Shown one piece after another: positions 5,527 to 49,425 of a stretch of DNA of 64,000 bases (positions are counted from its first letter, which is position 1; each line of letters starts with the position of its first letter). The position numbers and the translations under genes were made by a program. The DNA lies in NCBI GenBank assembly GCA_029776225.1, contig JAKOTR010000029.1, positions 124,001-188,000 of the forward strand, written 5' to 3'. This DNA is from Acidobacteriota bacterium (lineage in GTDB: Bacteria; Acidobacteriota; Terriglobia; Bryobacterales; Bryobacteraceae). Under the pieces are notes generated by a model. That model had not been told where the DNA came from. It saw nothing but the letters and a program-made list of their open reading frames with translations, and did no database searches.

Positions 5527-5705
5527 TGGTTGCCATAACGGCAGCCCTCAACACAGCGAGGAATGTTCGGGAAGGCGGTGAAAATCCGCCACTGCCCCGC
5601 AACTGTAAGCGACACAATACGGCTGCGCGGCCACTGCGAATAGTGGGAAGGCCGGGCAACCCAACCTCTGGGATAAGCCGAGTCGTAAGTCAGGAGACCG
5701 GTTCC
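5527..5705 (+). promoter_or_regulatory. Cobalamin riboswitch controlling btuBFDC
   Basis: The stretch contains the hallmark conserved blocks of the cobalamin (AdoCbl) aptamer in order: GGTGAAAATCCGCC (5577-5590), GCCCCGCAACTGTAAGC ending near 5610, GTGGGAAGGCC near 5643-5653, and the B12 box AGTCAGGAGACC at 5688-5699. It lies directly upstream of a BtuB-type receptor, as expected. A TATACT -10-like box at 5515-5520 fits a transcript starting near 5527. Downstream, TCGTTC (about 5706-5711) can pair with GAACGA (about 5735-5740) next to the GGGAG ribosome binding site of btuB, so translational control is plausible. The aptamer is read from sequence; the mechanism is inference. Confidence 0.93.
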
Positions 5706-5743
5706 TCGTTCGATGAGAATTCCGTTCCGAGGGAGAACGACTC

Positions 5744-48198: not shown

Positions 48199-49227
48199 TT
48201 ACTTTTCGGCTGCTCGGGCCTGCTTCCAGATGTTCAGATACGGCGCGAGGTCCTGCATCATCGTTGCGAACTGTTCGAGGGTCAGCGATTGCGCCCCGTC
48301 GCTGACGGCCTTATCCGGGCAGGGGTGGACCTCCACCAGAAGGCCATCGGCGCCCACGGCCACCGCCGCGCGCGAGAGCGGCGGAACCAGGCTGCGCTTG
48401 CCGGTGGCGTGGCTCGGGTCCACGACCACCGGCAGGTGCGTCATTTCGTGCAACACCGCCACCGCCGTCAGGTCGCAGGTGTTCCGCGTCGCGGTTTCGA
48501 AGGTGCGGATGCCGCGCTCGCAGAGAATCACGTTCGGGTTTCCGGCCGCCACGATATATTCGGCCGACATCAGCAACTCCCTGAGCGTGGAACTCATGCC
48601 GCGCTTCAGCAGAACCGGGCGCTTCACCCGGCCCAGGGCCTTGAGCAGCGCGAAATTCTGCATATTGCGCGCGCCGATCTGAAGGATGTCGGCGTATTCG
48701 GCCACGAGGTCCACGTCGCGGTCGCTCATCACCTCGGTGATGATTGCCAGGCCCGTGGCTTCCTTCGCCTTGCGAAGCAGCTTGAGGCCCTCGACTTCCA
48801 ATCCCTGAAAGTCGTAGGGCGAGGTGCGCGGCTTGAACGCGCCGCCGCGCAGGATGCGGCCCCCAAGGCGCGCCACCGCTTCGGCCGTCTGCATGATCTG
48901 CTGCTCGGATTCCACCGAGCAGGGCCCGGCCATCACGACGAAATCCGCCCCTCCGATTTCCAGCCCGTTCACCTTGATCCGGCTGCGCTCGCTCTTGAAC
49001 TCGCGGCTTACAAACTTGTATGGCGCCGAAATCCGCATGGCGTTTTCCACGCCGGGCATGCCCTGGAGCGACTCCAGGCATGGCGTCACGTCGCCAACTC
49101 CAACCGCCCCGATCACTACCCGTTCCTCTCCCTGAATGGTGTGGACTTTGTAACCGAACTCTCGGATCCGCTCGCAAACCGCCTCGATCTCTTCGCGGGT
49201 CGCGTGCAGCTTCATCGAGATGATCAT
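48199..49227 (-). CDS. aroF: 3-deoxy-7-phosphoheptulonate (DAHP) synthase with N-terminal ferredoxin-like domain
   Basis: The 342-aa enzyme has an N-terminal ferredoxin/ACT-like regulatory domain (about 1-70) and the DAHP/KDO8P barrel: [67 protein letters not shown] and [10 protein letters not shown]. It condenses PEP and erythrose 4-phosphate, the first step of aromatic amino-acid synthesis. This layout matches the Thermotoga/Bacillus type, where the N-terminal domain binds Tyr/Phe. ATG at 49227 has AAGGAG upstream. The frame remains open to 49344, but that part crosses the attenuator. Transcription is probably controlled by the aromatic leader peptide upstream. Confidence 0.95.
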
Positions 49228-49247: not shown

Positions 49248-49275
49248 AAAAAAAAACCCACTCTGTCGAGTGGGT
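49248..49275 (-). terminator. Attenuator terminator upstream of DAHP synthase
   Basis: Read on the minus strand, ACCCACTC (49268-49275) pairs with GAGTGGGT (49256-49263) around the tetraloop GACA, followed by a run of nine T (49248-49256). This is a textbook intrinsic terminator located 20 bases before the aroF start codon, so it can only act as an attenuator of aroF. Confidence 0.9.
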
Positions 49276-49331
49276 TGGTTTTTTCTGAAAAACTAGACGC
49301 CGTTCACCAACACCACTCACCCGGAGTGGGT
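49268..49331 (-). promoter_or_regulatory. Alternative pairing segments 1, 2 and 3 (antiterminator) of the aroF attenuator
   Basis: On the minus strand, segment 1 (ACCCACTC, 49324-49331) lies in the last codons of the leader peptide and can pair with segment 2 (GAGTGG, 49313-49318). Segment 2 extended (49307-49318) can instead pair with segment 3 (CCAACCCACTC, 49268-49278): GAGTGG with CCACTC and GTTGG with CCAAC, 11 pairs with one bulged base. That pairing excludes the terminator formed by segments 3 and 4. The stop codon of the leader peptide falls at the start of segment 2, as in trp/phe attenuators. Confidence 0.85.
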
Positions 49332-49382
49332 AAAGTAGTACCAAAATCGAAAGCTATACGATTTTGCGCTGGTGAACAGCAT
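49317..49382 (-). CDS. Aromatic amino-acid leader peptide of DAHP synthase (21 aa)
   Basis: The 21-codon frame opens with ATG at 49382 and ends with TGA at 49319-49317. Eight of 21 residues are aromatic; codons 13-17 read Phe-Trp-Tyr-Tyr-Phe, and Phe also occurs at 3 and 11, Tyr at 9. The run lies just before RNA segment 1 of the attenuator, and the stop codon abuts segment 2. A ribosome stalled at these codons for lack of charged tRNA-Phe, -Trp or -Tyr would leave segment 2 free to form the antiterminator; completed translation would favour termination. No strong ribosome binding site is seen, because the promoter places the start only about 8 bases from the 5' end. Confidence 0.85.
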
Positions 49383-49396
49383 GGACGAAACACGCC

Positions 49397-49425
49397 AGTA
49401 TAGCACTTTACTGGCGCTTTGTGAA
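49397..49425 (-). promoter_or_regulatory. Sigma-70 promoter of the aroF leader
   Basis: On the minus strand, TTCACA (49420-49425) and TATACT (49397-49402) are each one base from consensus and separated by exactly 17 bases. Transcription would start near 49390, 8 bases before the leader-peptide ATG. The promoter lies between the bifunctional nuclease gene and the leader, making aroF an independent unit. Confidence 0.75.

Follow-up and report, generated by a model that had tools for sequence, protein, structure and literature searches.

A likely ribosome-mediated attenuator with a mixed aromatic leader peptide precedes DAHP synthase in several families of one acidobacterial class

What controls a DAHP synthase gene, the entry enzyme of the aromatic pathway, when a short open reading frame crowded with phenylalanine, tyrosine and tryptophan codons lies directly in front of it? 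The question is raised by the minus strand of a 64,000-nucleotide stretch of an Acidobacteriota genome (contig JAKOTR010000029.1, family Bryobacteraceae; hereafter the window, meaning the whole stretch analysed), and it bears on how a single regulator could read all the end products of a branched pathway. Escherichia coli has three DAHP synthase isozymes. An earlier note, made from the letters of the window, had described a ribosome-mediated attenuator with a mixed aromatic leader here, consisting of a near-consensus promoter, a leader peptide, four mutually pairing RNA segments and a terminator in the geometry of the enterobacterial trp and pheA attenuators. The elements of the locus are as follows:

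49397..49425, minus strand: sigma-70-like promoter, with the -35 box TTCACA at 49425-49420, a spacer of 17 and the -10 box TATACT at 49402-49397
49317..49382, minus strand: leader peptide of 21 codons, ATG at 49382 and TGA at 49317, without an obvious Shine-Dalgarno sequence
49368..49382, minus strand: 5' arm of the 1:2 structure, start codon included; its minimum-energy partner is 49311-49297
49332..49346, minus strand: codons 13-17 of the leader, Phe-Trp-Tyr-Tyr-Phe, taken as the control codons; they precede segment 2 by 5-9 codons
49307..49318, minus strand: segment 2, GAGTGGTGTTGG, its start overlapped by the leader TGA; conserved and covarying with segment 3
49268..49278, minus strand: segment 3, CCAACCCACTC, partner of either segment 2 or segment 4
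49257..49263, minus strand: segment 4, GAGTGGG, pairing with segment 3 in the terminator
49248..49256, minus strand: nine consecutive T, the last part of the intrinsic terminator
48199..49227, minus strand: DAHP synthase, type I-beta, with an N-terminal ferredoxin-like domain (PF18152 and PF00793; PRK08673)

All these parts were found at the positions that the earlier note had given. The promoter matches 10 of 12 consensus positions and is the sole promoter-like site in 1.9 kb, where shuffles average 0.4. Eight of the 21 leader residues are aromatic, with the run Phe-Trp-Tyr-Tyr-Phe in its place, the leader stop codon falls on segment 2, and segments 2 and 3 form the expected 11 pairs, with one bulged U. 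The terminator stem (49276..49255) comprises 9 pairs; the T run follows it and the DAHP synthase start comes next, its ATG (49227) lying 20 bases downstream of the T run. Among solved structures, the best-scoring chains for the synthase are 4grs and 1rzm/3pg9. The leader RNA folds to -63.6 kcal/mol against a shuffle mean of -36.6 kcal/mol (z -6.7), and 0 of 200 shuffles did as well. One element did not stand as drawn. The proposed segment 1 (49331-49324) folds locally in the window, as a hairpin of -8.2 kcal/mol, and seems to be specific to it, having by eye no counterpart in most relatives. In the minimum-energy fold, the segment 2 region pairs on its 5' side mainly with 49382-49368, which includes the start codon.

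The comparison with orthologues carries the argument. A strict detector was applied, which called an ATG-initiated reading frame of 10-36 codons if its aromatic residues numbered at least 4 and made up at least 20%, and if a terminator hairpin lay -3 to 90 bases beyond its end. The 142 DAHP synthase regions searched were those of the window, 12 named contigs and the 129 best-matching of the other 199 same-family genomes (29 loci and 100 regions fetched by place); they represent the closer orthologues, 70 of the 200 same-family genomes lying outside the sample, and count a few genomes twice (L004/L123, L005/L150, L006/L113 and L010/L104 share leaders). An aromatic leader with a terminator was called in 110 of the 142, one call being false (L199). 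The same detector returned 0 of 142 on the reverse strands and 0, 0 and 0 of 142 in three rounds of dinucleotide-shuffled regions, and the arrangement is therefore not due to chance. Removal of sequences more than 90% alike (110 to 99) and of the false call at L199 left 98 non-redundant leaders, on which the leader counts below are based. Among the 32 regions in which the detector failed, a covariance model matches eight at full length (two of them weakly, with E about 0.004) and seven in part, three of the latter being cut by contig ends. Neither the script nor the model finds a match in 17 of the 142 regions, one of which (L155) keeps an aromatic reading frame with no recognised terminator. 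Relatives retain the aromatic peptide together with the hairpins, so that the core of the earlier reading withstands the orthologue comparison which the earlier note had named as a possible refutation. On this comparative evidence a ribosome-mediated transcription attenuator very likely precedes DAHP synthase.

The two hairpins of the proposed switch can be followed through alignment A1, which holds 77 of the 98 sequences (21 were omitted as divergent, long or near-identical, or because the leader runs through segment 2). The terminator (3:4) is paired in 99.3% of cells, with 29 cells changed on both sides, and the antiterminator (2:3) in 94.0%, with 16 such cells; the covariation score of each was equalled by 0 of 500 shuffles. 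When the partners were slid against each other, pairing dropped to 17-56% for the terminator and to 31-47% for the antiterminator. The two are mutually exclusive, the 5' arm of the terminator (segment 3) being common to both. Segments 2, 3 and 4 have changed jointly in five sequences, to GAGCGG/CCGCTC/GAGCGG in two and to GGGTGG/CCACCC/GGGTGG in three. Both the terminator and the antiterminator would appear to matter, since these joint changes are otherwise hard to explain.

For the 1:2 region the picture is a different one. A column-based helix between a shared ACGCCA and segment 2 was considered and rejected, being paired in 80.4% of cells with covariation not beyond that of shuffles. The leader together with segment 2 is more stable than its synonymous recodings (mean z -1.91, 74% below -1 and none above +1 in 87 sequences), a result to which no probability is attached because related sequences are not independent. 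This excess shrinks to z -0.5 when the tail is removed and to -0.7 when it is shuffled. The predicted 1:2 signal at the RNA level lies in base pairs between the leader and the segment 2 region, not in the segment 1 proposed at first. By eye, segment 2 or the bases just ahead of it hold complements to the arginine codons (CGG, CGA) of a leader motif, FRFW, and to the proline codons of the leaders of family f6.

The position of the aromatic codons can be measured against segment 2 in 86 of the 98 leaders, segment 2 having been located in all but 12. Aromatic residues make up 53-80% at codons 5-8 before segment 2, 34% at codon 9, 41-66% at codons 10-12 and 10-39% at codons 13-18, and fall to 21% at codon 4 and to 4% or less at codons 1-3; the relatives are likewise aromatic-rich 5-9 codons ahead of segment 2, where the window has its control codons. 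In 81 of the 86 the leader stop codon is no more than 12 nt away from segment 2, and tryptophan peaks at codon 7 before it (37 of 86). A ribosome covers about 12 bases beyond its A-site codon, so that most aromatic stalls would leave segment 2 free and a terminating ribosome would cover it. Aromatic codons become sparse at the positions from which a stalled ribosome would start to cover segment 2.

Folding of the RNA around a placed ribosome fits this geometry, with a switch at about the same point, when pairing across the ribosome is excluded, and for the window fits it only in part when such pairing is permitted. When only the RNA ahead of the ribosome is folded, 2:3 forms on average in 0.85 of aromatic stalls, in 19 of 85 sequences with the ribosome at the stop codon and in 26 of 85 without a ribosome; in the window, the switch falls between codons 18 and 19. 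Allowing RNA to pair across the ribosome changes these figures to 0.71 of aromatic stalls and 8 of 85 sequences at the stop codon, and leaves the ribosome-free figure at 26 of 85. The window itself then forms 2:3 at stalls on codons 3 and 9 (P 0.94-0.98); at the remaining six of its eight aromatic codons (11 and 13-17) it does not do so clearly (P 0-0.32). It is speculation that another ribosome, sitting on the 5' end, could keep RNA from pairing across the first.

Promoter spacing bears on how a ribosome would enter the leader. By a criterion of TANNNT with at least 4 of 6 matches, a -10 box lies 2-20 bases before the leader ATG in 93 of 98 sequences and 8-10 bases before it in 73, against 8 of 259 for other ATGs of the same regions. 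The box had helped to choose among in-frame ATGs, moving the start in 3 of the 98; when it is left unused for that choice, the counts are 90 and 71 of 98. The -35 boxes are poorly conserved, with three of six matches in 59 of the 93. Given this spacing and the usual distance from a -10 box to the transcription start, most leader mRNAs should start at the ATG or 1-3 bases before it. The gap in the window is 14 bases, and its untranslated stretch would be about eight bases. Shine-Dalgarno-like words are found at 7 of 98 leader starts versus 96 of 98 synthase starts, counted over -20..-4 because the transcribed part before the leader ATG would be only a few bases long. The -10 spacing and the rarity of such words suggest that the leader is probably leaderless.

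The regions in which no attenuator was detected add to this picture. Of the 142 regions, 21 contain an inverted repeat of the pattern (A/T)ACAC(C/T)-N7..9-GTGGTG; an attenuator was detected in 9 of these and not in the other 12. Eight of the 12 (L101, L110, L111, L125, L129, L132, L142 and L143) have the repeat 87-88 bases ahead of the synthase ATG, and six of the 9 (L097, L105, L112, L118, L119 and L124) have it 88-91 bases ahead of the leader ATG; the remaining seven have it at other distances, of 48-162 bases. Five of the 32 regions in which the detector failed, all of them among the eight, show a good -10 box 6-7 bases ahead of the synthase ATG; none of the 110 others does. On this evidence the synthase ATG occupies, in the eight genomes, the place of the leader ATG behind a putative promoter of the same layout, and the leaderless reading gains support because one start codon replaces the other behind a like promoter. 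The arrangement suggests that the attenuator can vanish as one cassette. Few independent loss events are needed, since the eight genomes fall in three genera and six of them in one (g59). Such cassette-less genomes with the same promoter layout amount to a natural experiment. The repeat itself, TACACC-N8-GTGGTG, looks like a putative protein binding site, perhaps the operator of an aroF regulator; a search for its pattern gave no match in the upstream region of the window. At another locus (L114), a promoter-like stretch is directly followed by the terminator and the leader is missing, through either a partly lost cassette or an assembly fault.

The arrangement extends beyond the family of the window. 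A covariance model, R1, was built from the 77 sequences, mostly of the window's family (f1) and with at least two of family f5 (L007 and L012, apparently G323 and G342); its training set held no known sequence of families f2, f6 or f7. It matches the window's genome once at full length, at the DAHP synthase attenuator locus, a second match being the reverse strand of the same terminator and discarded. In the class, 114 of 250 genomes gave matches at E 0.01 or better, and full-length matches at 1e-4 or better were obtained in 36 genomes of f1, 24 of f5, 20 of f6, one of f2 and two of f10; within f1, 38 genomes have an R1 match and 16 are listed without one. DAHP synthase is found at the match in 29 of 31 model-fetched loci (two of which are the window's own place), one of the other two being cut by a contig end just past the synthase start and the other placed before a broken synthase copy. 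A further 20 loci include 16 that precede DAHP synthase, in f1, f2, f5, f6 and f7. The full-length f10 matches that were fetched (L255, L256 and L257, both strong ones included) do not precede DAHP synthase and were set aside, as was one f6 match (L259), and one f5 locus before DAHP synthase (L254) has an aromatic-poor leader. On these matches, the predicted attenuator is common to several families of the class, with DAHP synthase downstream. In a sample of the phylum, 8 of 247 genomes match R1 at 1e-4, two of them of the window's own family; three more of the eight, of family f29, carry a Trp- and Phe-rich leader before a 56% identical DAHP synthase. Two others (L269 and L271, of families f16 and f23) have the aromatic leaders MDVQPAGANNYFWCWYRQGGWSAF and MNYWWYGGLGVRERMAAA with terminators; the best NCBIfam match of the genes that follow is anthranilate synthase component I, below its cut-off.

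From this anatomy, its conservation, the covariation of 2:3 and 3:4, the codon geometry and the promoter-to-ATG spacing, we infer how transcription start, translation, stalling and read-through might be connected. Transcription would start a few bases ahead of the leader ATG (at it or adjoining it in most relatives), and a ribosome would load on the leader without a Shine-Dalgarno sequence. With aromatic aminoacyl-tRNAs plentiful, the ribosome would reach the stop codon and cover segment 2, 3:4 would form and transcription would end at the T run. Were any of the phenylalanine, tyrosine or tryptophan tRNAs short, the ribosome would stall on the aromatic run and block pairing of the leader with segment 2; 2:3 would then pair, the terminator would be excluded and DAHP synthase would be transcribed. 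If there were no translation, the leader, start codon included, would pair with the segment 2 region and termination would be favoured. The supply of charged tRNAs for the three amino acids would in this way set the expression of the entry enzyme of the aromatic pathway.

The composition of the leaders bears on which of the three amino acids might be read. They have a median of 18 residues (range 13 to 34). Phenylalanine is present in 98 of 98, tyrosine in 92 and tryptophan in 87, all three in 82; by share of residues the order is the same (17.9, 9.3 and 6.4%). Between 45 pairs of related leaders, aromatic codons kept the same residue in 207 of 286 cases and an aromatic one in 231, and other codons kept their residue in 265 of 505. 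The leader-frame pN/pS is 0.84, against 1.06 in frame +1 and 0.84 in frame +2; as it is no lower than in frame +2, there is no clear protein-level selection on the peptide as a whole, and the idea that the entire leader is so selected was dropped for these 45 pairs. Sensing of all three amino acids would follow from the codon content, and the dominant one is probably phenylalanine, the commonest leader residue. A bolder reading, taken with rather less than even confidence, is a three-input OR gate, conserved in several families, in which a leaderless peptide would read phenylalanine, tyrosine and tryptophan, the start codon would lie inside the anti-antiterminator and the whole cassette could be lost cleanly. 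With the start codon inside the anti-antiterminator, as seen in the window, initiation at a bare 5' end would become part of the switch.

A possible alternative, held at clearly under even chances, keeps the same attenuator and makes it a phenylalanine sensor, with the tyrosine and tryptophan codons as passengers or as a reserve for extreme starvation. The universal presence and high share of phenylalanine agree with it, as does the absence of tryptophan from 11 of 98 leaders and of tyrosine from 6. The nearest parallel is AroR of Corynebacterium glutamicum. According to a review (PMC11802643) and two RNA-seq papers (PMC4046766, PMC3890552), the C. glutamicum DAHP synthase gene aroF is attenuated through the AroR leader, which carries Phe-Tyr-Phe; the review states that it responds to phenylalanine limitation and not to tyrosine availability (PMC11802643). 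Against the phenylalanine sensor, passengers would be expected to drift, yet 82 of 98 leaders hold all three aromatics, and tryptophan has a single peak, at codon 7 ahead of segment 2, a position at which stalling would be effective.

A different kind of sensor, in which the peptide itself binds a free aromatic amino acid and arrests the ribosome, would resemble TnaC, whose nascent peptide and free amino acid together stall the ribosome. The recurrence of FRFW in 40 of 98 leaders, with its non-aromatic arginine, and the Pro-Pro-x-stop endings of several f6 leaders point that way. We consider it highly improbable: phenylalanine, tyrosine and tryptophan interchange at the same positions, leader length varies from 13 to 34, the arginine and f6 proline codons may be explained by their apparent complementarity near or in segment 2, and a free amino acid should turn a biosynthetic gene off, which the order of the hairpins would not give. 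A third rival makes the terminator either the 3' end of a small RNA or a fixed brake, with the short reading frame as a decoy or acting in trans. It accords with the terminator being the best-paired part and with the S. meliloti trp leader RNA and peptide, which are described as acting in trans (PMC7298713), but is very unlikely, as segment 2 covaries with segment 3, needlessly for such a brake, and the codon geometry matches a ribosome footprint.

The mechanism favoured here, a mixed aromatic leader that would act through ribosome stalling, is that of the classical leader-peptide attenuators. Those of the enterobacterial trp and pheA operons combine a leader peptide, alternative hairpins, a stop codon at segment 2 and an intrinsic terminator, all of which recur in the window, and their leaders carry a Shine-Dalgarno sequence. 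The locus described here differs from them in having the entry enzyme as its target, three amino acids in its leader and a Shine-Dalgarno-like word only rarely. No Rfam family reaches its gathering score at the locus, Trp_leader (RF00513) and Phe_leader (RF01859) included, the weak matches being Phe_leader with 23.8 bits of 55, Leu_leader with 22.0 of 50 and Trp_leader with 20.5 of 41. A T-box or metabolite riboswitch was found neither at the gathering score nor among the 12 weak matches.

The acidobacterial locus would share with AroR the control of a DAHP synthase gene through ribosome-mediated attenuation at an aromatic leader, a likeness of architecture. It differs in phylum and in the presence of phenylalanine, tyrosine and tryptophan in most leaders, AroR answering to phenylalanine and not to tyrosine. 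Leader peptides without a 5' untranslated region are likewise on record for leuL, trpL and ilvL of Streptomyces lividans (PMC8079986) and for trpL of Sinorhizobium meliloti, whose reading frame begins at the 5' end of the transcript (PMC7298713). They resemble the acidobacterial leader in this placement, and differ in their genes and amino acids and in that their 5' ends come from RNA ends, the acidobacterial one from the -10 spacing. The locus also bears on how ribosomes start on attenuator mRNAs that have no Shine-Dalgarno sequence.

The earlier note knew of no description, for this type of bacterium, of DAHP synthase attenuation by phenylalanine, tryptophan and tyrosine together. The target is known from Corynebacterium; as far as the literature was searched, what appears to be new is the phylum, the conservation across families of the class, an entry enzyme behind codons for three aromatic amino acids together, and the loss events. 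Among the papers listed by the literature searches, which covered subscription papers little, none reports an aromatic leader attenuator in Acidobacteria. A 2010 survey states that almost no attenuators predicted in Acidobacteria have an associated function (PMC2965389). Here the gene, the signal and the mechanism can be named for an attenuator conserved across several families of one class.

Several further observations concern aromatic genes elsewhere in these genomes. Another DAHP synthase of the window's genome (L002, C23) has as its neighbours trpA on one side and, on the other, a gene like prephenate dehydrogenase (below curated cut-offs); R1 has no match there. No attenuator was seen in the 661 bases read before the prephenate dehydratase of this genome. 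The TrpE N-terminal domain PF04715 has no match in the window's genome, against 14 of 14 control genomes, which may reflect an assembly gap, divergence or loss. In genome G292, one locus (L242) has a broken DAHP synthase start behind an extra copy of the attenuator, and another attenuator with its synthase lies on a separate contig. The window also contains a cobalamin riboswitch on the plus strand, at 5530-5716.
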